Source: Amoebophrya sp. AT5.2
Taxonomy: Eukaryota; Sar; Dinophyceae; Syndiniales; Amoebophryaceae
Direction of reading: 5' to 3'
Length of the DNA stretch: 13,243 nt
NCBI GenBank assembly: GCA_005223375.1
Contig: RXOD01005611.1
Span: forward strand, 1-13,243
Translations under genes and position numbers: made by a program
Shown here: positions 1 to 13,243 of the stretch, piece by piece
Layout of the letters: each line of letters starts with the position of its first letter
Numbering within the stretch: position 1 is the first letter of the stretch
The notes under the pieces: generated by a model
What the model was told of the DNA's origin: nothing
Databases searched by the model: none
The model's input: the letters and a program-made list of their open reading frames with translations, nothing else

Positions 1-1
1 G

Positions 2-3000
2 GCCGCCGCCGTCGTCGAAAACTTCGCTGCGTTACGAGACGGAAGCGCGACGACGTCGTCCTCATCAAACAGTGGGGGGATGGCAAATGAAAATGTTCTG
101 CCCAGTCTAACGGCCAGCCCATGGCGCACGACTGCACCGAAATCGAAAGCGGCAGGCGATGGGAGTGGCGTGGCGATCAAGGCGACTGACGCGGGCTACG
201 TTCGGAGCTCGAAGAACGGCGCAGGGGCGTACTACGTGGTGGCTGTCTTTCCGCCTGGCACGACAACGAGCACGAGAACGACTCTTCGGTCGTTATCACC
301 CCCCGCCCGCACACTTGCCGCGACCCCTGCTTCTCCGACGATGTCCGAGGCCAGGACATCGTCCGATGCCGATGAAAGGGAAAACAGTAACGATAACGAA
401 AATAACGATCACAGAATCAGAAACGACCCGCGACGAGTACTAGCCGACGGAACGACTTCCGGAGAGGTCCGTGGCTATCGCTACGCCCTGCAGATTCGTT
501 CTCTGCAGGAGACGGTTTTCAACGAGCTGCTCGCCGGGCAGCCGGCCGTGCGTGGCTCCGCGGGCAAGGGCGACGTCGTCAAGTACGCTATCCGCATCGG
601 CCCGCCGACGGATAAGAACCAAAAGCACAGACGGCACATCGTGGTCTCCCTGGTCGTGTTCAGCGGCGACGCGGATCTCTACGCCGGGTTCTCGAAGTCC
701 GTCTCGAAGGCGAGCCACTCCTTTTCCAGCTCGCGCTACGGGTCGGACGCCATCTTCATCACGGGGTTCTCCGAGAAAAACAGGTGCGCGGACGTGTTCG
801 CGCGGGGGGAGGACTGCGTGGTTAGGGCGGTTTGTTCTACTTCACTTGACTGAGACAGAGTATCTATCCTATTGCTATTCCTAGAAGCTACCCAGCTGCT
901 GCATGATCTTCCGCCGGGCGTCCTCTTCAGAGCTTATTTCTATCTACGTCTACCCGATAGAAAGTAGTAGTTCCAAGTGAAGTGGAATGAATCGCCATAG
1001 TGGTGTACCTGGTCGTGTATGGGTACAACTCGGAAACAACCTACGCGCTGTCCGCCTACGTAGTGGACGGGAAGCCGGTCGAACTGGTGAAGACGCTGGA
1101 GGGAAACCTGGAAAGAGGCCTGCGCCAGTTTTACTGGAGCCGGTTCGATTTGGAGGCACCACAGCTCGGAGGGAAGAACGGCGGGAATAGTAAAGCCGAA
1201 AAGAACTACTTCTTCGGCCGCATCACGATCGTGCCGCACAAGGGGGACCCGGATCTGTACTGCACTTTGACGGACGTGGGCACCGCGAAGAGCCCGCCGG
1301 CGTCGTTCGCGGACCTGAAGCACCTGAAGGCCACCACGGGATACAAAAAGTTCGCCTCCTACAAAGCGAGCGGAACGGAACTCGTGCGCGTCGCGCACTC
1401 CAACTGCAAGGAGAAGGAAGTTGGGGGCCGCGGGGGCTCGAGCAGTGCCACAACTTCTTCACCTCGCCGCTACATGGACATGCTCCGGGAGAAGGTGTCC
1501 GCGCTGCTGCCGCAGGTACTATCCGCCTCCGCGACGAAAAAATTACTGCCAGCGCCATCTTCAGCTGGAATAGCTGCAGAAGATCGGAGTCTCAAAACTG
1601 CTTCAGCTTCTTCAGCCACCGCGGCGGATTCCGAGGATTCGTGCGCGATTTTTTGTGCGGTATACGCGTTCTCGAACACCACGTACGAGATCACGTATTC
1701 GACCGAGGAAGACGACGCCAGCGCCTCATCATCTTCGTCCAGTGGCGGAGGCACCAGCAGCTCTTCTTCAGCTTCTTCCAGCGCTTCCTCATCGTCGGTG
1801 TTCTCCTCCTCCGGCGGCCCTGTCACTGTCACGGCCACCTCCCCCGCCATCGGCATGCTGCTGAAACAGGCCCACGAGACCGAGTCTTTCGCGTTTCGCG
1901 CCACGGAGAGCAACGCCCTAGTCCGAGTGACGCCGTACATGGACTGCCACCTGGTCACGACCGTGAAGGGCGCCGAGTACACGAAGTACCAGATATATGA
2001 CAGGACCAGATGGTAAGTGCGTACCTGGTAGGTGCTATGAAAAGACTGCTTAGGTACCTGGTAAGTGCTAGGTGATGGGTCCCCACTTGGGTGGCGAGCT
2101 TCGGAGATGCTCCATTGTGAGGGGCAGAGGAGGCGGGCCAAACGCTGAAGATAGCCGACGAGGAGGAGATGGAAGTGGTAGGGGAAAGCCAGGCACAGAG
2201 AAATGGTGATAGGACGACCGGAAAGCAGGGCAAAAGAGGGCGCCAAGGTTAGCGATTGGTTGTCAGCCTCAGCACAGCTATAGGCTGCAAAAGTGCCAAA
2301 GCCAATTTTGCCAAGAACCGCGAAATAAAGCCCATTGTGCTCCTCCTGCAGCCATCTACTTAGGACCACCAAACAAAGGGGATCCCAAAAAGCCCCCAAA
2401 AAGTTTCACTTGCCACTTAGTTAGGCACTTACCACCTGGTGCTTGTCCCGCCATAAGATACCCGTCACGGGGCTCTCCGTGGGGGAGGAAGTGCTGGTCA
2501 AAGTAAAGATGGCGCCGAGCTACGCCAGCGAAGTCGTCTGCATGTACGAGGTGGGGGTTTCGTTTGGAGCGCCGACGGGGGCGGGGGGATCATCCACCGG
2601 CACAAGTGGTGGAACTACAAGTTCAGGTTCTTCTTCGGCAGCGTCATCTTCTGGAAGTGGAAGCGGGTCTCAGACATCTTCACCCGGCGAGAGCAAGTCG
2701 AGCAAGCAGCTGTTTCCGACCATTATGGCGAGACCAGATGGTAAGTGGCTAAGTGGTTAGCGGTTTTTTAGGGGGGCTTTTTCGGTTCCCTTTGGTCTTG
2801 CTCTTGTTGTTCCGAAAAAAGTGCAATACTAGGAACAAGCGCGGCCATCCGCCCCAGCCTGGCAACCTTGCACCACCACACAACAAAGGCCAAGAAGAAA
2901 GGTCCACTCTAGGCGCCCCCTTTTGCCCTGCCACTGTCTGTATACAACTGCACTAGCACTGTTGATCTTGATTCCAGCAGCTGCTACTGGGTCTCGATGG

Positions 3001-6000
3001 CTTTCCTTTCCTTCCCACTGGTTCACTGACCTGACGCCCCTCCTACAACTAATGGGGCATCTCTGAAACCGCCCGGCGCTTCGCGCCGGGCGGTTCAGAA
3101 CGCATTAACGCACTCGCCACCCGAGGGAACCCATTACCCAGTGCTATACCAGTTCCCCACTTACCATCTGGTCTCTTCATAACCATTTACACGGAGAACA
3201 ACACGTACAAAAAAGCGAAACTGAGCCGCTTGACGAACGGGATTCCCTTCATCGGGTCCACCGCGGAGGGGCGGGGCTTCGAGGAGCAGCGCTTCGTCTA
3301 CTCGCCGGAGGACTGCGACGCAACCGAAGTAAGGATCACGCCCTTTAGCGGCGACATGCTCGTCTTCCGAAAAAAACCCGGCTCCTTCAACGAGGCCGCG
3401 GATACGGAGGTAGTCTAGACAAAATGTTTTCGGGAGATTTTGAAGAAACTGACATCGATCGAGATGATCGATTCCTAAAAATTAAAATTTCAGTGATAAT
3501 GTATACTGCAGCTGCACCGACATCGACACTCATGCATTTTTCAGGTTTGGTACAGCGTGCAGCGCGGCGTGATCGACGACGGCACCCGCGAGCACGCCCG
3601 CACGTCTGGCGACGGAAGCTCAAGTGCTTCTTCTAAGCGCGGAGGAGGTTCGGGTAGTACTGCTTCCGTGAACGACGAGATTGCTTCCTCCAAGAGCAGC
3701 CTTCTGGAGTCTTTTATTCTGAAGCCTGGGCGAAACGGCGACAACGTGTGCGAGGACATGAAGTTTCTCGTGCGGCGCATCCACGGCGTGATGGCCTCCG
3801 ACTACAGCGTGACCGCGTTTGAGGACGGCAAGGGCCGCCCCCGGTTCCAGACGCTGCCCACGGACGTGCCGACCTACCTGCAGTTTCCGGGCAAGACGCA
3901 GCGGTTCTCGCTGTTCGTGAATTCCGCGGTGACGAAGCAAACGTTGCGGCTGCAGTGCCGGCCCAGCTGCGCCGGCATGGAGCTCTCCGCGAGCATGGCC
4001 CCCGACGACGACGCGGAACGCATATGGAAGCTGACCGCGGCGGAAAGTACAAGTAGCGGGACAAGCAAAGCAGGAGACAAAGGAGCTCCCGAGCTGGTGG
4101 AGCTGGCGTTGAAGGACCGGTCGTCGTCCCGCAACTACGGCTTCTACCCGCGCGTGGTGTACGCCTGGGTGACCCAGAACACGCAGGACTCGCACGGCGT
4201 GCTCGTCCACGCGTCGCTGGTCGCGACGTCGGACTCAGACTTTGGGCTGCTCCTCGACGGAGCGGAGGCCCAGATCGCCGTGGTGCGGAAAAACAGCCCG
4301 GCCTACTTCGCCTTCGACAGCCGAAGGTCCAGTCCGTTGCTCACCGTCATCGCGAAACTTCCCTACGACGAAATTATGAAGCGAGACCACGACCAGAGCC
4401 AGGTGGTAAGGCGGTGCGACAGCTAATGTTGGGGGGAGAGGGAACAGCAAGAGGTCATGGATATCGCAAGCCAGTGGCTAGTACTAGAATGGTGGAACAG
4501 CGGCTGCAAGTCGGGCAAAAGAGGGAACCCAGACTGCGCCGTCTGTACTGTCAGTGTCAGCTGTAGGGTCTGACAACGGCGCCAGTGGTTTGCCAACCGC
4601 AGAAAGTAGAAGCCGTCCTTGCTTCTAGTACTTCTGCGGCCTTCTTCTTAGGAGGACCTAGCCAAAGCCAAACAACACAGCGAAGAGCTGCCCCCCCAAC
4701 ATCTCACTCACCACTATACGTCACTTACCACTTGGTCCCGACATAGAGAAGAACGACCTGTACAACGTGCGGACGCGGCTGTGGGTCCAAAACTGCCTCA
4801 ACTACGACCAGCACAGCGACCCGGAGCGACCCATGCCCTCCGCGGAAAGCCACGACGCGGCGGGAAAGCTGAACTCGCGGAACCAGCTGATCGCTTTTGT
4901 GGATAACAGCCACGAGGTGGCGGTGGCTACGGAAAAGGCGACGGAAAAGAAAAAACAGCAGAAGCACTGCATCTACCGCATCGGTATTGAGACGGAAAGG
5001 CCGGAGCCGGTGCGCGTGGCAATCCGGGGAGGCAGCACGAGAAAAAACGCGCCGCTGCGAGTGAACGGACCAAGCCAAATCGGGATCCTGAGGGAGGGAT
5101 TCCCAGAAAGCTACATTTTGGTACTCTACTGGAGCTGGCGGTACTAGTGAATGTGGAAAAGGACAAGTAGTTCCGATCTCATTTAATGGCTTTTCTTGTA
5201 AAACGAAAACGATGTGATGTTTGTTGTAAGCACAGCAAGAAATAATTGCATCTCTTCGGTCCTCAGTCCAACCACGTGTCCTACGCCGAGCTGGAGCAGA
5301 AGGTGTTGGTGCACTTCGAGCCGTGCCTCGGCACGCTGAAGCCTGCCCGACCGCCCATCCACGAGATGCCGGGCTCGTCGGACACGCCGATCGAGGTTCG
5401 CTGCGAGGGCAAGGACTGTCACGGCCGCTTCCTGCTCCGCGCCACTTCCATGGACAACAGCTGGGAGTACCGCCCGGGCAAACTGGAAACGCCCACCAAG
5501 GGCTGGCGACACGGCACGTACTCAGTGTCGTGGACGCCGCCGAGAAAAAGACACTACCAATCCGACGAGCACAAGGAGGAAGCCTTTGCAACGCTCACGG
5601 GAAAAGACGTGTGGTACCTGTTCCACTTCTCAGTTCATCTTTATGTTTAAATTTGGCTTTTCGTTTTTCTGCCAGTTGCGGGCACTGATTCAGGTACAGA
5701 CAGGAGCTCGCTCCCGTCTGCGCGCTCCGTTTCACCAATCTGTAACTTTTATTATGTAAGTACTACAACTACGCGGAACGAAAATATTAAGTATACTGGT
5801 AGAGCAAAGTATATCCCACCCGTAAAACGGGACTACTAGATCATTTAAGCTTCCCCTACAGCATCTGGCTCATGACACTCGTCCAGGATCATCGCATGCG
5901 TCTTAGTTCATCGGTCTAAAGTAGATGCAAGTGCGCACCTTAACTGTAAGCCAGGGCAAGGTTAGTACCGAGCCACACAATCGTCAACAGTATACTGGTA

Positions 6001-6733
6001 GAGCAAAGTATATCGATATTGTTTTGTTTATCCGATCGCGATCCCGAATCTGCATCACAGGTACGAGCTTTTCATCGTCCCTGTCTCCGCCGAAGCTCCG
6101 GTCTTCGACCTCTTCCACCCCACCCCCTGCGGCCTCTACAACATGATTGGCACGGTCGCTGGTGTCCAACGCAAGATGTTCACGCAGGACGACTTAACAG
6201 TTTCGTCTGACGACAAGGATGCCCCTCCGACGATTTCCGCCACGGTGACGGCGCACTACGCGCCGACGAGTGGGGAGCACTTCGAGTTCGTTTTGCTGGC
6301 GCGTGACGGCGAGACCGACGAGAAGTTCGCGTACGCAAAGGTGAGCCTATCCGAGGACGTCAGCGAGGGCAAGGGGGACTTCAAAGGCGACCCGTCGCTC
6401 GCGATGGACGGGACAGTTGGCGCGTTGGGGGGGCTTTTGGGCGGCAAGGCGCAGCAGTACGGCTTCTTCGCGCGATTGAGCTGGGTTCTCTTCGTCGGGT
6501 TCGTGATCGTCACAGGACTGCTCGTGGTGGTGAAATACGGAAAGAGCTTCTTCTCAGCGGGAGGATCGGGTTTGGGGACGCTGGGGCTGGGCGGGAGGAG
6601 TCACAGGACATACCAACGAGGGCAGACCTCGTTCGAGATGCACCCCGCAGCGGGGAGCGGGCTGGAGGCGGCTCAACACGGGGGCGGATACTACGAACCG
6701 CCAAATGCAATAGGGTACAACAGGATCGAGTGA
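2..6733 (+). CDS. Large modular extracellular type I membrane protein, 8 exons, 5' end outside window
   Basis: Proposed exons are 2-822, 1005-1995, 2461-2723, 3187-3409, 3545-4374, 4751-5120, 5267-5613 and 6061-6733. They sum to 4518 nt with every junction in frame, giving 1505 residues and a TGA stop. The frame is open back to the window edge, so the true start and any signal peptide lie upstream; the ATG at 80 follows a Ser/Gly linker and is probably internal. The product repeats beta-rich modules, with starts such as VVYLVVYGYNSETTY, IFCAVYAFSNTTYEITY and PTIYTENNTYKKAK. GDADLY (residues about 222-227) and GDPDLY (about 354-359) resemble the core of PPC-type (bacterial pre-peptidase C-terminal) domains. 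Modules are separated by Ser/Gly/Thr linkers. A hydrophobic span (residues about 1421-1439, nt 6476-6532) followed by Lys/Tyr and a tail of about 65 residues suggests type I topology. I do not recognise the family; a surface or secretory-pathway role is inferred. Confidence 0.8.
823..999. mobile_element. Introner-like element, family B (177 bp), acting as an intron
   Basis: The element lies between two copies of the 5-bp duplication GTGGT (818-822 and 1000-1004). Its ends form an imperfect inverted repeat: 5' TAGGGCGGTTTG then TTCTACTTCACTTG, against 3' CAAGTGAAGTGGAA then TGAATCGCCATA, with 10 bp (ACTTCACTTG) perfect. Removing the element plus one GTGGT joins GAC TGC GTG GT to G TAC CTG and restores the frame (phase 2). 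The element carries in-frame stops and no coding capacity, so it must be spliced out or the gene is broken. Its TIR differs from the family A elements, so I treat it as a separate MITE-like family. Sliding the cut within the duplication never gives GT at one end and AG at the other. Confidence 0.8.
1996..2455 (-). mobile_element. Introner element, family A copy 1 (460 bp), reverse orientation
   Basis: The element is flanked by the 5-bp duplication AGATA (1991-1995 and 2456-2460). It begins TATG and ends CATA. The TIRs read TATGACAGGAC ... CAGATGGTAAGTGC at the left and, reverse-complemented, TATGGCGGGAC ... CAGGTGGTAAGTGC at the right; the right copy carries about 6 extra bases. Excision of element plus one AGATA gives TAC CAG ATA CCC GTC (Y-Q-I-P-V) in phase 0. 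Internal blocks read on the minus strand (GGGGGCTTTTTGG near 2387-2399, CTCTTTTGCCCTGC near 2226-2239) match the plus strand of copies 2 and 4, so this copy is inverted relative to them. The left end also holds a near-duplicate of GTACCTGGTAAGTGCT (2021-2036 and 2054-2069). Confidence 0.9.
2724..3181 (+). mobile_element. Introner element, family A copy 2 (458 bp)
   Basis: The element is flanked by the duplication ACCAT (2719-2723 and 3182-3186). Its TIRs are the longest here: a terminal TATG, two unmatched bases, then a perfectly inverted 19-bp block (GAGACCAGATG followed by GTAAGTGG). Excision with one ACCAT joins CCG ACC AT to T TAC ACG GAG, restoring F-P-T-I-Y-T-E-N-N-T-Y, which resembles module starts elsewhere in the protein. 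Internal blocks GGGGGGCTTTTT (2771-2782), ACTAGGAACAAGCGCGGCC (about 2828-2846), CAGCCTGGCAACCTTGCAC and CTTTTGCCCTGCC recur in the same order in copy 4. No transposase ORF is visible. A strong 12-bp hairpin sits inside it at 3068-3094. Confidence 0.93.
3068..3094. repeat. Perfect 12-bp-stem GC hairpin inside introner copy 2
   Basis: ACCGCCCGGCGC (3068-3079) and GCGCCGGGCGGT (3083-3094) pair perfectly around the loop TTC. Flanking CTGA/TCAG extends the stem past one bulged base. Compared with copy 1 (reverse complement), which runs from GCATCTCCGAA straight into GCTCGCCACCC, copy 2 has about 45 extra bases here, so the hairpin looks like a later insertion. Confidence 0.85.
3410..3544 (+). other. 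Canonical GT-AG intron (135 bp)
   Basis: The donor is GAG|GTAGTC at 3409/3410 and the acceptor is TTTTTCAG|GTT at 3544/3545. The join is phase 0 and gives A-D-T-E-V-W-Y-S-V-Q. The interior is AT-rich with stops in frame (TAG at 3416-3418). V-W-Y at this junction recurs at the 5613/6061 junction. No TIRs or target-site duplication are visible, unlike the introner elements of the same gene. Confidence 0.8.
4375..4745 (-). mobile_element. Introner element, family A copy 3 (371 bp), reverse orientation, decayed
   Basis: The element starts TATG and ends CATA with TIR cores CCAGGTGGTAAG (left, about 4400-4411) and CTTACCACTTGG (right, about 4725-4736). The left arm has roughly 12 extra bases. The expected duplication is imperfect: GAAAT (4370-4374) against GAGAA (4746-4750), 3 of 5 matching. 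Removal of the element plus five bases still joins GAC GAA AT to G AAC GAC in frame (phase 2). Minus-strand blocks AGTACTAGAAGCAAGG, GTTGGCAA and CCTCTTTTGCCC match copies 2 and 4 in order, so this copy is inverted relative to them. It is shorter and more diverged, consistent with an older insertion. Confidence 0.8.
5121..5266 (+). other. Canonical GT-AG intron (146 bp)
   Basis: The donor is ATTTTG|GTACTC and the acceptor is GGTCCTCAG|TCC. The join is phase 0 and gives E-S-Y-I-L-S-N-H-V-S-Y-A-E-L, which aligns with other module starts containing an Asn-Xaa-Xaa-Tyr-like segment. The frame upstream would otherwise stop at the TAG at 5145-5147. The donor choice rests on phase and module similarity. 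A GT at 5131 was rejected because it breaks phase. Confidence 0.65.
5790..5815 (+). repeat. 26-bp direct repeat, copy 1 (intronic)
   Basis: The 26 bases starting AGTATACTGG and ending AAAGTATATC are identical to 5989-6014. Within the unit, TATACT and AGTATA are inverted around a 10-base spacer (GGTAGAGCAA), so each copy can form a small stem-loop. Confidence 0.9.
5989..6014 (+). repeat. 26-bp direct repeat, copy 2 (intronic)
   Basis: This is an exact second copy of 5790-5815, 199 bp downstream in the same intron. The flanking sequence differs, so the shared unit is sharply bounded. Confidence 0.9.
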
Positions 6734-7350
6734 TGAGAGGAGAGCAGGTTCTGGTAAATCTAAATCCGCGAGGCTAATGATGAAGACGTACACCACGCGA
6801 CACACCTTCACAGAACCAGAAGAGGAACTGGCCCACAGATGAAGATGACAAATTGTGTAGCTTAATAGAAAATTGGCTGATGGTTCGTCCGTTTTGCGCT
6901 GTCTAATTTACTTCATCTCGTGACACGCCGGCGCCTCTTCTCCTGATCGTGATCGCAAGGCGTCGGCGTCGTGATCAGCATCAAAGATGAACGTAGTTGG
7001 ACCGATGGATCATAAGTGCGTACTTCTTCGTCAATTTTTACTGCAAGTGAAGTTTTTCATTTTCTTGTCCATCGATCTTCCGACGTGTCCATGCTCATAC
7101 ATAGTGTGCGGTTCCGGTAGCGCTTTATCGTCGTCGTCCATTGTATACTAGGGTAGGAGAAGTATTTCATCTATTGTTACGACTTGTAGTTTCGAGTTCG
7201 ACCACTGCGACCGCCCGCTCTGAATTACTGTACTAGGCAGAGAAGGAAGTCGCTGTCCGTTGTTGAGTATTTATATTTTTATAGCCTCATTTCTTCCTTG
7301 GGAAGCCGTTCTCTCCGTCGCACGACCATCAGACCGTCTGCTGCAGCACC
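6734..7350. other. Intergenic region between the membrane-protein gene and the secreted-protein gene
   Basis: I see no convincing ORF or RNA gene here. It must hold the 3' end of the upstream gene and the 5' region of the next one. The only promoter-like sequence is the AT-rich stretch at 7268-7284. CTGATC and GATCAG (about 6942 and 6974) form a short inverted pair of doubtful meaning. Confidence 0.6.
7268..7284 (+). promoter_or_regulatory. AT-rich TATA-like stretch upstream of the secreted-protein gene
   Basis: TATTTATATTTTTATAG lies about 67 bp before the ATG at 7351 in an otherwise mixed-composition region. It could serve as a TATA- or T-run core promoter. Position and composition are the only evidence. 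Confidence 0.3.
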
Positions 7351-8197
7351 ATGTCCCGCAGGCAAGCATTCAGGCGCAGGAGGCTCGAAACCTCCACGCT
7401 TCTGCAATTGGCCGCGCTGTTTTTCCTCTATCAGTCCACGACCCCGTTCGTCGGCGGCGACCCCTCCCCCGAGGAGTGGGAGGAGTGCAAGCGGTGCACG
7501 CGGAAGGAGTACGTCTTCTGCTACACGACGATGAAGTGCATGCCCAGCTTGCATATGGTGGGACCAGGTGGAAAGTAGGCAAGTTGTGGTACGTGAGTTT
7601 TGATTTTTTGGGGGGCTTTTTGTGTTTGCTGGGTATTCTTTTGTTGTTCCTAAAAAGCGGTCGGCAGTACTAGGAGCAAGCGCGGCCTGGGCCTTCCGTG
7701 CCAGCCTGGCAACCTTGCACGACCAGGACCACCACACAACTATCTAAGGCGAACAAGAAAGCACCACGTCCACTCCAGGTGTCTCCTTTTGCCCTGCCTT
7801 CATGTTCATATTACTGCTCTATCACGGTTGATTCTAGCTACTGTGTTTCCATGGGCATGGCCTTTCTTTTCTTCCCCCACCTAGGGCAATCCGCCACCTA
7901 AAGCAATCCGCCACCTAAAGCAATCCGCCACACAAGTCGGGACCCATCGGATGAAGTTGTACTTACCATTTCTTTGCCCACGTTCCACCTGGCCCCTTCA
8001 TATTGCACATCGACACGCCGACACCGCGGATCTTCGCGAAGTGCCCGAATCCACTGATGATCCCCGAGTCCTGCCGTTCCAAGGGCATCCACCCCCCCAC
8101 CGCCGAACAAAAGAAGCAGTACGCAAGGGAGCACGCCTACGAGGAAGAACTGCGGGCGGCACGAGGTGCTGGGGACCATGTTGACGGAGAACTGTGA
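7351..8197 (+). CDS. Small secreted cysteine-rich protein, 2 exons (7351-7553, 8008-8197)
   Basis: The exons total 393 nt, giving 130 residues plus TGA. The ATG at 7351 sits in a CACCATG context. The N-terminus has a basic head (SRRQAFRRRR) then a hydrophobic stretch LLQLAALFFLY (residues about 17-27), as in a signal peptide or anchor. Next comes a compact cysteine module: C46-x2-C49-x7-C57-x5-C63, then C80 and C90, with W43 just upstream. The spacing recalls PSI/plexin-type cysteine knots, a family resemblance only. The C-terminal 35 residues are charged and probably helical, ending DGEL; this resembles ER-retrieval tetrapeptides but is not a standard one. Removing the introner at the TTGCA duplication gives S-L-H-I-D-T in phase 2. 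The function is unknown; an extracellular or secretory-pathway location is inferred. Confidence 0.75.
7554..8002 (+). mobile_element. Introner element, family A copy 4 (449 bp)
   Basis: The element is flanked by the duplication TTGCA (7549-7553 and 8003-8007). Ends TATGGTGGGACCAGGTGG and, reverse-complemented from the right, TATGAAGGGGCCAGGTGG are near-identical TIRs. The usual GGTAAGT in the TIR is changed here to GGAAAGT at the left and GGAACGT at the right. Interior blocks GGGGGGCTTTTTG (about 7610-7622), AGTACTAGGAGCAAGCGCGG (about 7667-7686), CCAGCCTGGCAACCTTGCAC (7701-7720) and CCTTTTGCCCTGCC match copy 2 in order and orientation. Excision with one TTGCA restores the small gene's frame. 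No transposase ORF is present. Confidence 0.92.
7886..7932 (+). repeat. 17-bp tandem repeat, nearly 3 units, inside introner copy 4
   Basis: GCAATCCGCCACCTAAA occurs at 7886-7902 and 7903-7919, with a partial third unit (GCAATCCGCCACA) from 7920. It is absent from the other three family A copies and so arose in this one. Confidence 0.9.
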
Positions 8198-9042
8198 GCG
8201 CCGGTCATGCGATCACCTCGTCCTGTTAGTTTTAGATTTGCTATTGTGCGGTAGCGGTACCGGTACGTACAGTTGCGTTCGCGTTCTTATTTTTGAACGC
8301 GAATCTACTTCAAGAATGGAGACAGGGACGGCAAGGACGTGTATGAAAAGAAACTCCAGACTCAAAAAGAACAGCGCTTGCCTCCGCGAAGAAATAAAGA
8401 CCGCGTGGGCGGGCACACCGAATGACCATCAAACAACACGCACTCGTCACATTGGATTACGTGACTGAGACTGAGTGACTTAGCCGCGGCGTAAAAAAAA
8501 TTGACGGTGAAGATTGATGGTGTTCACGTGTTTCCAGGAGCACACACTCCTTTTTAAAATGTCCACGCGAACTTTTCTTCCTGTAGTTGTAAAGTGTAGG
8601 ATCAGGATGTTCATGGGAATCTTCTACTTCAATGCGCGAAGGCGAACACTAATATTCATATCGAAATTCATTTGAAATCTTTTAATAAAATGCTATAATG
8701 CTCAGCAGTTTAGCGTCGCAAGATTAACATGCATTATGTTGATTAAGTATCATGATCATGGTCTTGGTCTGTTAGCTGTAGCTCGGACACGAAATCGAAA
8801 TCAAGCACCAGCCCTGCACGCGAATCGTCTGAGAGTAATCTACGTGTACGTTATTTAACGTTTCGCGAATAATAAATTAGTGAGTTCTGGTTCTCGAGAA
8901 GCTGCCGCTGCGTGATGTCTCAAACGAATGAATCCTAGTTTCTCATCTGCTACCCCTTCGTGAACCCGTGCCGATCCATCTCGATTACTGATTGATTGAT
9001 TGACTGATCCATCTCGATTCATCTTCTATCTCTGCTAAGTTT
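8198..9042. other. Non-coding region upstream of the tRNA-like duplication
   Basis: I find no supportable gene. Contents include a 3'-flank hairpin (8277-8304), an AT-rich zone (about 8640-8900) with AATAAA-like motifs (for example near 8684 and 8868), and a direct repeat of GATCCATCTCGATT (8973-8986 and 9006-9019) flanking a short GATT run. Confidence 0.6.
8277..8304. repeat. 9-bp hairpin 80 bp after the secreted-protein stop codon
   Basis: TTCGCGTTC (8278-8286) pairs perfectly with GAACGCGAA (8295-8303) around a T-rich 8-base loop, with an extra G-T pair outside. It could be a 3'-UTR or 3'-end processing structure; the role is inferred from position only. Confidence 0.7.
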
Positions 9043-9212
9043 GCGTGAACGCATCGCAGATCTTGCTGCAATTTCGTGACGACTCACTTGTTGTAGTACT
9101 TGTTCTCCGAATCGCCAAGAACCAACATCAGCGGTGGTCTTCGTTACCTCAAATAGAGTTTCGCAGTCTTATTCCATGGAGTGCCGCGTGCGCGCTCCTC
9201 TACTTTACAGAA

Positions 9213-9433
9213 GCCCGCGTGGTGTAGTGGTAGCATCCCTGGCGGTTCAGCTATCGCGTGTAACGCACTGCACAATGCTACATTGTGCCTGCAGAATGTA
9301 GCATTGTGCAGCGCGTTGCACGTGGCAAGCAGATGTCTGCTGGCCTAGCTGCGGCCAAGATGGCTGCTGATATCGAATCAGCTCTCCACCAGGGGAGTGC
9401 CGGGGGGGGCGGGTTCGAATCCCGTGGCGGGCA
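9213..9433 (+). tRNA. tRNA-like gene 1 with ~150-nt structured intervening sequence; anticodon unassigned
   Basis: The acceptor strands are 9213-9219 (GCCCGCG) and 9426-9432, giving six pairs, with A73 at 9433. The D arm is GTGTAGTGGTAGCAT (9222-9236). The anticodon-stem strands are CCTGG (9238-9242) and CCGGG (9400-9404). The variable loop is 4 nt, and the T arm is GCGGG-TTCGAAT-CCCGT (9409-9425). The A box is TGGTGTAGTGG and the B box is GGTTCGAATCC. TTTT (9434-9437) directly follows, as a Pol III terminator would. Between the anticodon-stem strands lie 157 nt instead of 7. The D arm is most like glycine tRNAs, but no simple splice leaves U33 correctly placed, so the identity is open. A tRNA-derived SINE head or pseudo-tRNA is an alternative. 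Confidence 0.6.
9257..9322. repeat. 28-bp stem hairpin inside the tRNA-like intervening sequence
   Basis: The stem strands are 9257-9284 and 9295-9322 with a 10-nt loop (GTGCCTGCAG). The inner 17 bp (CTGCACAATGCTACATT against its complement) are perfect. The whole stem has one A-C mismatch and one G-U pair, and wobble pairs can extend it slightly. The size resembles a pre-miRNA hairpin, though an inverted-repeat insertion is equally possible. Confidence 0.9.
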
Positions 9434-9546
9434 TTTTGCGACCTAGTGCAGTACATCGCCACGCGTCGGACGACCACGACGCTACTGGTGGCGCAACTAA
9501 CTTGCTACAGTCGCGGGCGCCGCACTATCTAAAAAAACCCAACCGC

Positions 9547-9764
9547 GCGAGCATCAGGCACTCCCTTCGGTTGCGTGATCGCTCGATCCATCGCGCGACC
9601 ACGCCAGTGCCAGTAGTTCCCACGCTGCTGCGGCCGATCTCCCTGCGGCAGACTTCTCCATAACTCCTCCTGTTTCCTTTCCCTTAGCCACCTGGCCGGT
9701 CTTGCATTTGTTCCTGAATCAATTCATCTACTTCATCTACTTAATCTACTTCTACGAGAAGATC
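9547..9764. other. Spacer between the two duplication copies
   Basis: No gene is seen. Near its end is a short tandem repeat of TTCATCTAC-type units (9723-9755, about 3.5 units, one variant TTAATCTAC). Confidence 0.6.
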
Positions 9765-9840
9765 GCGTGAACGAATCGCAGATCTTGCTCCAATTCCATG
9801 ACGTCGAGTCACTTGCTGTAGCATTTCTTTGTGTAGCCAA

Positions 9841-9861
9841 GAGAGAGAGAGAGAGAGAGAG
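9841..9861 (+). repeat. (GA)n microsatellite
   Basis: Ten GA units plus a G, flanked on both sides by TAGCCAAGA. It is present only in duplication copy 2, so it expanded after the duplication. Confidence 0.95.
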
Positions 9862-9975
9862 TAGCCAAGAATTAATCTCAGCCGTGGTTTTAGTTTTTGT
9901 AGTTACCTCAAATATAGTCTCGCAGTCTATCTTATTCCAGGGAGTGCCTCGCGCGCGCTCTTGTTCGGTACAGAA

Positions 9976-10194
9976 GCTCGCGTGGTGTAGCGGTAGCATT
10001 CCTGGCGGTTCTGCTTGAAGTGTGGGCACGTCCCAGCCGGAGTGGCCGACCCTAAGCAGGATCGCTCCGGCTGACTGAAAGCAGGTGCGTTCTGCGATCC
10101 TGACCCGCCAGTGTGGTCTGCGACCCGTACGCATCGACTCAACTCTCCGCCTGGGGAGTGCCGGGAGGGGCGGGTTCGAATCCCGTGGCGAGCA
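9976..10194 (+). tRNA. tRNA-like gene 2 with ~148-nt structured intervening sequence; anticodon unassigned
   Basis: Arm for arm this matches tRNA-like gene 1. The acceptor strands GCTCGC and GCGAGC carry a compensatory T-A pair where gene 1 has C-G at position 3, which supports selection on structure. The anticodon-stem strands are CCTGG (10001-10005) and CCGGG (10161-10165). The variable loop is AGGG. A and B boxes are intact, and TTTT (10195-10198) follows. The intervening 155 nt match gene 1 in length (157) but not in sequence, apart from short edges (CGGTTC(A/T)GCT and CTCTCC(A/G)CC(A/T)GGGGAGTG). The CTCTCC/GGGGAG stem next to the 3' arm is shared by both genes. The anticodon cannot be read confidently. 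Confidence 0.6.
10034..10102. repeat. Interleaved 9-bp stems (possible pseudoknot) in tRNA-like gene 2 insert
   Basis: CAGCCGGAG (10034-10042) pairs with CTCCGGCTG (10065-10073). CAGGATCGC (10057-10065) pairs with GCGATCCTG (10094-10102). The stems interleave and share only base 10065, so they form either a pseudoknot or two alternative folds. Confidence 0.8.
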
Positions 10195-10311
10195 TTTTGC
10201 GACCTAGCTAGTGCAGTACATCGCCACGCGTCGGACGACCACCACGCTACTGGTGGTGCAACTAACTTACTACAGTCGCGGGCACCACACTATCTAAAAA
10301 AATCCAACCGC

Positions 10312-10617
10312 TTTAGGTAGCGCCACTATTTTTAAAGAAACTATGCCATAAATGGAAATCGAAATGTTGTAAAAATAGACTCACACTCACAGGAGACAAG
10401 AACAACATCATAGCACCCAGGTTTGCCGCAGCAATTACAACGTATTGACTCCGAGATCGACGGAGCAAGTAGAAGTACAGAATAAATAACGAAATCAACA
10501 CTGATTCTACTTCTTGCTCTTTGCAGTCATTCATGACGCTTTCCCTCGTTTTCAGCCACTGAAGGGGGCAAAAAAAAAGTGAGCAGCGACAATATAGATA
10601 CTCAAGCAGGAAGATCG
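10312..10617. other. Region upstream of the 869-aa ORF
   Basis: About 300 bases with no supportable gene. CTCGTTTTCAG at 10545-10555 would be a good splice acceptor for a 5' leader or upstream exon; the frame of the downstream ORF is open from there (last upstream stop TGA at 10534-10536). An A9 run lies at 10570-10578. Confidence 0.5.
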
Positions 10618-13227
10618 ATGGCGGCCTCCAGCAGCTCCACCCACGCCCGTCGTTGTGGAAGCCACGGCAATCACGATACCCAGTCCACGCTGCACGACGA
10701 GGCCCCCCTACCCATCATGCTGCGCGAGGTGCCGGGCGAGTTTTTGCCAGCGTTGGGGGAGTATGAAGCAGTCGGCGACATTCGCCGAAAGCTTGCCGAG
10801 ATGCTCAAGACAGGAAGAGCGCAGGCCCACGCCGATGGCAATCATGAGCATGCGGCGGAAAATGCATATTCCGGATCCGGGATTCTTGGAAAGGAAAGGC
10901 GATCGACCAAAGGACGACCTTGGCGGAAGCTGGCGGAAGATGATTCTTGCCCGCCCGTCGTGCAACTGTTCATGGATCGGTGTATCCGAAGTAGCTGCCA
11001 CCGAGCGCAACAGCCTGGGCCTGGCCCGGCACCCTCTCTGCCGTCTTCAGGCGTCGCGGAGGAGGTTCCCCCGGCCTCAAGTTCTTTCAGCAACTCCAGC
11101 GGCTCGGCATCGGCTTTAGGCCCGAGCCCCGCAGGACCGTCTCGTCCGGCAGCTGTTGCGAAACTCGAGTTGGAGGCGATGGACGACAGCTGGCTGTTTT
11201 GCAGGACGTCGGCGCCGGACGAGGCCTTTTTGTTCTCGCGCTCGAGCGAGCGGATCGGCCGCGGTGGAGGAGGACGAGAAACGACTACGAACAGAGCGGC
11301 CACGAGCTGCGGCCCCACCAGGACAAGATCGATTCCGGACCGGCGAAGCTACCGGGATCCACTGAGCAGACGCAGAAAGGAAAACGCAGATAATTCGTGT
11401 TCGTTGGGGGAAAACTACAAGCGGTCTTCATCAGCTGGCGGTGAACAAGTCCACCGACAGCGAGCATCTGCGTTGGCCGCCAGAGAGCTCCAGAGCGTCG
11501 TCGTTGGCGCGCCGACGCTGTGGATGCGCGAGTGCTTGCCCCCCTACAGACTTCTGATGGAAGGCCGCACACTGCCATGCAGTGAGTTAGCGTCCTCGGT
11601 CGCCTACTTGAGCGATCTGTGCGACGAATATCCGGAAGCGTTCTTTCCTCGCCTCGTCACGGTGGCCGAGACCTTCCGGCTAATGGGAGACGTGCTGAAG
11701 TGGTCACGCTCAGACCGCCGCGCCGCATCAGCATCACGTAGGGGTCTGCGCGGCGGCGCGACGCCAAAAATCGATAAACTGCTCGACAATTTCCCTGCCG
11801 AACGCGTCGCAGAGTGTTGCGCCTTTGTCTGGCCAAGACTAAAAAAGCAACTAGACTTGCAGAATCCGCGCGAGAAGGCGCACAAAGCGGCGAGGAAAGG
11901 GGCACGCCGAGCGCAATCTGAACAAGACGTGCCTGCCGGTGTTGGGGACGAGCAGCACCTGGAGAAATCACAGCAGCAGCAGCGGCACGACCACGAGGAC
12001 GCTGGCAGCCAGAACTTCTCCGGGAATCAGCGCCGCAATAGGCTGGCGTACGATATTGGTGAGCTCGTACGCTATTGCCGGAGCGGTAGCGGCGAGCCCC
12101 TGAGCCCCCTCTTCCTCTCTACTGATACAGGTAATAAAGGGAGTGAGAAATTCCCGCGCTCCGGGGAGGTATTGACGGACCGCGAATGCGTCGCGTTCTA
12201 CATTCTGAGCCAAAGCTGGACCGGCGGCACGCAGCAGGGCCCCCCTGACTGCAATAAGGAGAAAGATAGCTGCACCAGCCGCTTTCCACCGTCGCCCTTC
12301 ATTTACTTTTCCCAACGCGAGAACACACTGGCAAGTAGAACGCTCTACTTCCTAAAAAAAACGAACGCGAAGTGGAGGGCGGAGGTAGGTGGTGCTGCTG
12401 GCTCTTTACCCCTGAACGCCCTCTGCAGCGGCCCATTGGACTACTGGCGGCGGTTCTTGGCGGTAATTTGGCGTACAGAACTCGTGGCCCACTGCTATCG
12501 TGATCTGCTGAGGGGGACGAACGATCGGGAAGCCGAAGCGATTGCAGCGGACGATAGCTTGCGCTGCGAAAAGATCTTCGCGTACTTCTGGAGCCTGCTG
12601 GATGCGACGATGTTGAGGCTGGGCTCGGAGTTTGGCAATTTCCTGATCGGCGTTTTGCTGCGGTGTATGGTGCCAGATACTTCGGAGCACTTTCATGCGG
12701 AGACGGCCACCAGAATGCTGCGCTTGCGGAACGGCGTTGCGGGTGTGGATATTGACGAGGATGCAGATGGCGAGCTTGGTGGGCCGTCTTTGTCGAAAGA
12801 GGTGGGGGCGGCCTCCACTACTCCTTCCGACCGCGGCCTGCCCCTGCCGCACAAGAAAAGAAAGGGGCCGCGCATGAAAGAAGTACTTCCGGCCGGAAGT
12901 CGCTTAACAGGAATATGGGGGCCAGCCCACCGCGACGACATCCTCCACAGGCGAGGAATATTGATGCGGCCCACGCCGTGGCTTCCCGGGGGCTCCAAAG
13001 CCGATTACGCGGCCGAAAAGAAGGCGCGAAAGCGGTGCGGCGATCTAAGTGGAGGCAGGCACATCCTGCAGGTGACGCGCCGAGTATCCAAAAAAGGCTC
13101 CGGAAGTCCCTCCGCAAGTCTTGCCACCGAGAATGGCATCAAAATTGAGCACAGTTTCGAATTGCGCATGAGCGATCTGCATTTCCCTCTGCTTTTGTTG
13201 CCGGCGTACCGCGAGGCCTTTCTTTAA
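10618..13227 (+). CDS. Unrecognised 869-aa protein, intronless ORF, probably nuclear
   Basis: The ATG at 10618 (GATCGATGG) is the first ATG after the last in-frame stop; the ORF ends TAA at 13225-13227. The frame is open to 10537, so an upstream exon joined at a TTTTCAG acceptor near 10555 is possible. I do not recognise the family. The N-terminal 300 residues are Ser/Pro/Gly-rich and probably disordered (for example PGPGPAPSLPSS). More ordered, Trp/Cys/Leu-rich segments include LWMRECLPPYRLLMEG, PLDYWRRFLAVIWRTELV and FAYFWSLLDATMLRLGSEF. Basic clusters KAARKGARR, HKKRKGPRMK and EKKARKRC resemble nuclear localisation signals, so a nuclear or nucleolar role is an inference. There is no signal peptide or membrane span. 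Unlike the other two genes it carries no introner. Confidence 0.75.
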   Translation: MAASSSSTHARRCGSHGNHDTQSTLHDEAPLPIMLREVPGEFLPALGEYEAVGDIRRKLAEMLKTGRAQAHADGNHEHAAENAYSGSGILGKERRSTKGRPWRKLAEDDSCPPVVQLFMDRCIRSSCHRAQQPGPGPAPSLPSSGVAEEVPPASSSFSNSSGSASALGPSPAGPSRPAAVAKLELEAMDDSWLFCRTSAPDEAFLFSRSSERIGRGGGGRETTTNRAATSCGPTRTRSIPDRRSYRDPLSRRRKENADNSCSLGENYKRSSSAGGEQVHRQRASALAARELQSVVVGAPTLWMRECLPPYRLLMEGRTLPCSELASSVAYLSDLCDEYPEAFFPRLVTVAETFRLMGDVLKWSRSDRRAASASRRGLRGGATPKIDKLLDNFPAERVAECCAFVWPRLKKQLDLQNPREKAHKAARKGARRAQSEQDVPAGVGDEQHLEKSQQQQRHDHEDAGSQNFSGNQRRNRLAYDIGELVRYCRSGSGEPLSPLFLSTDTGNKGSEKFPRSGEVLTDRECVAFYILSQSWTGGTQQGPPDCNKEKDSCTSRFPPSPFIYFSQRENTLASRTLYFLKKTNAKWRAEVGGAAGSLPLNALCSGPLDYWRRFLAVIWRTELVAHCYRDLLRGTNDREAEAIAADDSLRCEKIFAYFWSLLDATMLRLGSEFGNFLIGVLLRCMVPDTSEHFHAETATRMLRLRNGVAGVDIDEDADGELGGPSLSKEVGAASTTPSDRGLPLPHKKRKGPRMKEVLPAGSRLTGIWGPAHRDDILHRRGILMRPTPWLPGGSKADYAAEKKARKRCGDLSGGRHILQVTRRVSKKGSGSPSASLATENGIKIEHSFELRMSDLHFPLLLLPAYREAFL

Positions 13228-13243
13228 GTGGATCAGCTCCCAA

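Follow-up and report, generated by a model that had tools for sequence, protein, structure and literature searches.

We analyzed a 13,243-nt window of Amoebophrya sp. AT5.2 (contig RXOD01005611.1, positions 1 to 13,243; contig C1815 of the 50.7-Mb genome) in which two protein-coding genes are interrupted by five insertions with inverted ends, candidate introners. Gene 1 occupies 2-6733 on the forward strand, with its 5' end beyond the window. Its eight joined exons (2-822, 1005-1995, 2461-2723, 3187-3409, 3545-4374, 4751-5120, 5267-5613, and 6061-6733) form a single frame of 1505 amino acids (aa), and the orthologue in Amoebophrya sp. A120, P0003, is 61% identical. The exons are separated by (i) four of the insertions and (ii) three ordinary GT-AG introns on the same strand (3410-3544, 5121-5266, and 5614-6060), whose borders were placed by eye and agree with the frame and the A120 junctions. 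Gene 2 (7351-8197, forward strand) holds the fifth insertion; once this is removed, the gene encodes 130 aa with a hydrophobic N-terminus and has relatives in A120 and in a metagenome.

A preliminary description of the window had placed four insertions of a single family here, beginning with TATG and finishing with CATA, with exact 5-bp target-site duplications (TSDs) at three of them and a degenerate pair at the fourth. All four are where it put them, with the duplications it reported. We refer to them as family 1. E1 (1996-2455, 460 nt) lies between copies of AGATA at 1991-1995 and 2456-2460; E2 (2724-3181, 458 nt) between copies of ACCAT at 2719-2723 and 3182-3186; and E4 (7554-8002, 449 nt) between copies of TTGCA at 7549-7553 and 8003-8007. 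E3 (4375-4745, 371 nt) has a degenerate left end and is flanked by the TSD-like pair GAAAT (4370-4374) and GAGAA (4746-4750). The inverted-repeat ends of E1-E4 are of the type TATGRNGGGACCAGRTGGTAAGTG, with 6 extra bases in the right end of E1 and about 14 in the left end of E3. Internal sequence orients E1 and E3 alike and E2 and E4 in reverse (+ and -, respectively; the label is arbitrary). The internal blocks had been described as sharing one order; because the two pairs are oppositely oriented, this is true only after two elements are reversed, and not of the elements as they stand. At 7873-7931, E4 also contains a tandem array of three units with a period of 17 nt (repeat family D7).

The assignment to one family is right for E1-E4, but a second family, F2, is present outside the span then described. 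Its element at 823-999 (177 nt, + strand, inverted repeat I7) sits in gene 1, as do E1-E3, has the ends TAGGGCGG...CGCCATA, and is flanked by GTGGT at 818-822 and 1000-1004. The F2 end type is TATGGCGATTYATTCYACTTCACTTG, and its terminal inverted repeat (TIR) has 11 matches in the genome versus 0 for the control. Among five F2 elements for which both ends were seen, four have an exact 5-bp TSD (823-999, L078, L081, and L082) and the fifth, L084, does not. The two families have in common the TATG...CATA termini and the 5-bp length of the repeat.

The preliminary description had proposed a genome search with the TIR core of family 1. Allowing up to two mismatches, we obtained 813 + 769 = 1582 matches, versus 177 + 216 = 393 for a reversed control. 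The excess of about 1190 ends suggests some hundreds of family-1 elements, at two ends each, and this is an undercount if many copies are more diverged. A 24-mer of the end has 96 exact matches in the genome versus 0 for the control; in viral contigs, the TIR 24-mer has 0 matches. Copies were drawn from the first 100 end-core places listed and from the 96 24-mer places, in both cases on condition of a good end motif and with most places close to a contig end passed over. We retrieved 100 loci; under a fixed rule, 65 of them contained 68 elements and 35 contained none. Adding the four window elements, which were positioned manually and of which E2 and E4 were also recovered by the rule, gives 72 copies. 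By internal sequence, 71 of the 72 fall into one cluster with no sign conflicts. The terminal inverted repeats match at a median of 21 of 26 end positions (range 15-25, 70 copies).

All five bases of the duplication agree in 48/72 copies and at least four in 62/72, compared with 0.75 and 2.3 when the right flanks are shuffled. When 40 pairs of flanks were aligned (one of them false, the left flank of E1 with the right flank of E2), 33-35 of the 40 matched at exactly five positions; the three positions flanking these on each side matched in 5-10, and positions further out in up to 17. The TSD length is thus constant at 5 bp, and the duplications define the ends of the elements to the base. On the coding strand, G at position 1 of the TSD (14/35) is more frequent than C at position 5 (5/35; p 0.03), a bias too weak to use. 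Three family-1 copies (L041, 528-954; L049, 498-943; and L053, 642-967) have unmatched flanks, with 0-1 of 5 bases agreeing, and in L041 the coding strand differs between the two flanks. Such cases may reflect chimeric assembly or recombination between copies. We also note that 10 of the 96 exact 24-mer ends lie less than 300 bases from a contig start (e.g., C7:93, C698:111, C888:56, and C2245:43) and that other family-1 ends run into contig ends, as in C13. The assembly is probably broken at these repeats, so that copy counts are too low.

We then asked what the insertions do to the reading frame. In the window, removing each element together with one duplication keeps the frame, as had been claimed, and yields the single frame of 1505 aa for gene 1 and the 130 aa of gene 2. 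For the sampled copies, codon scores were trained on the window genes and each flank was scored separately. Both flanks agreed on the best coding strand in 52 of the 71 copies with enough flank, and among these the frame was kept in 49 when the element and one duplication were removed (43/44 at a margin above 2). Insertions occur in all three codon phases. These counts bear on the alternative that the elements are plain miniature inverted-repeat transposable elements (MITEs) that disrupt genes or sit in pseudogenes and are not removed at all. They do look like MITEs, having a TIR, a TSD, and no coding gene seen inside. However, the frame is kept across the insertion in 49/52 copies, including copies in core genes such as those for RPC2, DNA polymerase epsilon, and dynein, and gene 1 reads as one 1505-aa frame across four introners. 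We find this alternative barely credible.

The orthologues point the same way. The preliminary description had proposed comparing orthologous genes, and at the protein level the junctions of E1-E4 are all free of gaps against A120. For gene 1, all seven junctions align without gaps, those of the four introners (823-999, E1, E2, and E3, the last reading DEKND in A120) and of the three GT-AG introns; the gap closest to the E2 junction is 13 columns off. The A120 protein was the only relative found for gene 1 among 7984 candidates scored. A protein search with the E3 segment gave no match, the A120 protein exceeding the size which that search allows. The joined protein of gene 2 has relatives in Amoebophrya sp. 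A120 (65%) and among JGI metagenome proteins (53%), both gap-free through the E4 junction. Should the JGI protein be a direct call from contig DNA, that DNA would have an empty E4 site. Beyond the window, we picked six conserved genes by eye from the 72 joined peptides (RPC2, cystathionine beta-lyase, TTLL6, axonemal dynein, DNA polymerase epsilon, and a GH2 glycosidase), and the junction was gap-free in the best PDB alignment of all six. The A120 proteins represent the mature product only and are silent on introns at these places in A120 DNA; the case for gain here rests on the duplications and the kept frame.

Removal could in principle take place on DNA and not on RNA, by programmed excision like that of the internal eliminated sequences of ciliates or by precise cut-and-paste. 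Precise, TSD-bounded excision both ways is what excision from DNA gives, and the present data are all at the DNA or protein level. Against this, many copies are retained in the genome assembly, and dinoflagellates are not known to have a somatic nucleus with programmed elimination. Moreover, for analogous elements in the A120 genome, the passages of Farhat 2021 (PMC7789003) on these introners report removal supported by RNA-seq. We consider removal from DNA very improbable.

We next considered how the borders are defined. Relative to the gene, 16 copies are in sense and 19 in antisense orientation (p 0.74; 35 copies with a confident coding strand); an earlier, looser, and overlapping count gave 16:12. 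Only 1 of 29 copies (28 of family 1 and one of F2) could reach the junction through a GT-AG or GC-AG cut. The elements have the non-canonical borders, inverted repeats, and 5-nt direct repeats of introners of the Amoebophrya type, and U2-type GT-AG borders fit 1/29. GGTAAG is strongly conserved in the family-1 ends, and this speaks for an account in which the elements are ordinary spliceosomal introners, with GTAAGT in the left end as the 5' site, an AG near the right end as the 3' site, and a few element codons staying in the mRNA. The duplication starts with G in 14/36 copies, which would allow a cut of the form GTAAGT...CATAG, and the product is then in frame in 13/14, usually with 21 nt added; in 9/36 an AG lies within the duplication. 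Yet the CATA|G site exists in those 14/36 only and not in E1, E2, or E4, and the last 24 nt contain an AG in only 2/36. The other AGs near the right end split 29, 25, and 25 over the three frames, so that in-frame sites are not appreciably enriched. GTAAGT is absent from the F2 end motif, and a choice of GT-AG sites leaves unexplained why the frame is kept on removing exactly one duplication. As a general account we regard ordinary splicing as improbable, and GTAAGT in the ends cannot be the general 5' splice site; for the minority with CATA|G (14/36), GT-AG splicing with added codons could still apply, judging by the sequences. Because both orientations occur, GT-AG fits 1/29 copies, and GTAAGT cannot serve generally, the general intron signal should be symmetric.

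Three copies bear on where within the duplication the cut would fall. At E3, A120 reads ...PYDEKNDLYN..., and its K requires the right copy at position 5, since the whole GAAAT would give M. For L097, in a dynein gene, position 5 of the right duplication yields the L that stands in the best PDB relative. For L055, in a TTLL gene, it is position 1 of the left duplication that yields the V of the best PDB relative. The cut would thus come after the first base in L055 and before the fifth in E3 and L097, and a single rule for these three copies, at one residue each, would place it inside the 5-mer.

Taken together, E1-E4 and the element at 823-999 are very probably introners: short non-autonomous TIR elements with a 5-bp TSD that are removed from RNA as non-canonical introns. 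We propose that such an element transposes into coding sequence and duplicates a 5-bp target, with a transposase that would be supplied in trans. Removal would occur at the RNA level, by analogy with the RNA-seq-supported introners of A120, and would take the element and exactly one duplication, probably by a cut within the duplicated 5-mer that leaves the protein unchanged. Because the two orientations are equally frequent, the defining signal must be identical both ways; it is thus most likely contained in the inverted ends TATG...CATA, which could pair and so draw the two duplications near each other, and it is no strand-specific GT...AG pair. What the sequences show is the family, the TSDs, the coding sites in all phases, the frame-exact borders, the two orientations, and the lack of GT-AG at the junctions. 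The first suggestion, that a non-autonomous TIR element with a 5-bp TSD has given rise to introns, is supported by genome-wide copies, duplications, frame test, and orthologues. The evidence had been called direct; it is so for insertion, but splicing we infer.

Support for pairing of the ends is mixed. RNA fold prediction pairs the ends of both E2 and E4, the E2 fold is more stable than its shuffles (z -8.6), and end column 15 co-varies (42 matches versus 31.3 shuffled). Several observations weigh against the proposal as a whole. The E4 fold is no more stable than shuffled sequence (z -1.1), and among the conserved end columns 78 cells deviate, of which just 1 is compensated on the other side, which gives little sign of selected pairing. 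We therefore put a requirement for end pairing no higher than plausible, the end mutations being uncompensated and the E4 fold not unusually stable. The rates given for TSDs and for pairing are upper estimates, because the sample was chosen by good end motifs and 35 of the 100 loci gave no element. The two flanks disagreed on the coding strand in 19/71 copies (13/57 at a margin above 2), which were excluded from the frame count; possible reasons for the disagreement are flanks that are too short, the ends of genes, and other introns. Finally, we found no transposase: the profiles PF13359, PF10551, and PF12762 had no match in the genome while their control gave a signal.

A further profile, PF05699, also had no genome match, and as its control was silent this is uninformative. 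Among 26 loci with one end unmatched, 19 show internal similarity over at least 300 nt, as ordinary copies do, and seven show less (L033, L034, L063, L065, L066, L073, and L105). None of these 26, for which long spans were not fetched, was seen to be a long copy enclosing a gene. As for the splicing machinery, U6 small nuclear RNA (snRNA) was found twice in the genome, and the U1 and U2 snRNAs were not found, with silent controls; since U2 was missed too, the missing U1 is no evidence.

The gene 1 protein is long, with a hydrophobic segment near its C-terminus; the A120 orthologue, at 2328 aa, carries no precomputed Pfam domain. The A120 orthologues of genes 1 and 2 each lie on a contig of 16,501,155 bp, probably the same one. 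A palindrome-like 24-mer, TATACTGGTAGAGCAAAGTATATC, occurs twice in the GT-AG intron at 5614-6060 (5792-5815 and 5991-6014). Downstream of gene 2, two tRNA-like stretches lie in tandem about 763 bp apart (about 9210-9434 and 9973-10195). Their halves are 86-92% alike, but the roughly 118 nt in the middle of each, close to the anticodon loop, appear unrelated; these are possibly tRNA genes with long unrelated introns. With the bacterial code, the sole call of ARAGORN was a tRNA-Arg at 9338-9434. The first insert contains a 32-bp inverted repeat with a 2-nt loop (9257-9322), which matches the Rfam family mir-2013 on both strands and below the cut-off, and is for those reasons probably only a hairpin.

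The preliminary description had pointed to syndinians as dinoflagellates with introners of this general kind, and this fits: the dinoflagellate spliced leader (SL) is present in the genome (18 exact copies and 50 at up to two mismatches, versus 0 for the control), and named orthologues were found only from Amoebophrya sp. A120. A single complete SL-like sequence is reported for each of two Amoebophrya genomes in the passages of Farhat 2021 (PMC7789003). Judging by the proteins, the host is most likely a syndinian near A120, yet would clearly be another species at 61-65% identity. In PMC12005148, on a further Amoebophrya genome, splicing in Kv is said to be mainly GT/AG, as in AT5, and the unusual introns of A120 and A25 are suggested to occur in only a subset of the genus.

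The closest published counterparts are the introner elements of A25 and A120, for which the same passages of Farhat 2021 (PMC7789003) describe inverted repeats, direct repeats of 3-5 nt, and non-canonical borders supported by RNA-seq, in 252 families (A120) and 1954 families (A25). They leave the origin open, argue against general mobilization by transposases, and report putative transposases only in A25. Family 1 resembles these introners, as described there, in its inverted-repeat ends, short direct repeats, non-canonical sites, predicted hairpin, and occurrence in a genome with many families; A120 families start with TAT, as family 1 does, and the orthologues of genes 1 and 2 are also from A120. 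In contrast to them, the family-1 duplication is constant at 5 bp and directly outside the ends. The A120 inverted-repeat pattern, given as TAT, seven variable bases, and at least AAA, differs from the family-1 end TATGRNGGGACCAGRTGGTAAGTG when compared by description. Orientation relative to the gene, scored here for family 1, is not treated in those passages. The introners in the portions of Gozashti 2022 (PMC9860276) on which we draw are likewise TIR and TSD elements that create coding introns, and the pipeline used allows opposite orientations; a family in Symbiodinium microadriaticum has a 4-bp TSD. In the examples given there, splice sites are carried by or recruited from the element, TSD, or exon, whereas 28/29 of our copies have no junction GT-AG or GC-AG. 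That survey included Tara Oceans genomes, so the present genome may fall within it. The nonconventional introns of euglenids and diplonemids, in the accounts consulted, are similar in having variable non-canonical borders and secondary structure that joins the ends; these are a separate lineage, and the likeness is one of description, with no sequences compared. A description of family 1 was not found in titles and abstracts on introners of Syndiniales or dinoflagellates or on introners in both orientations, a scope that leaves supplements and bioRxiv aside. The kind is therefore known, that of the non-canonical Amoebophrya introner (Farhat 2021), and the family, set apart by description, appears to be new.

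Family 1 is a real and abundant transposon-made family of probable introns. The same insertions combine a transposition footprint with a preserved frame and with an orthologue that has no additional residues, in a lineage for which the published passages leave open how such introns arose. The near-equal orientations narrow the mechanism, as whatever removes these elements must read a symmetric signal. Tentatively, and with somewhat less than even confidence, we suggest a strand-blind intron, in which palindromic ends and the 5-bp repeat would set the borders, the cut would fall inside the 5-mer, and a fresh insertion would work in either orientation and in any phase; a second, hairpin- or repeat-guided mode of removal would then operate beside GT-AG splicing in the same gene.

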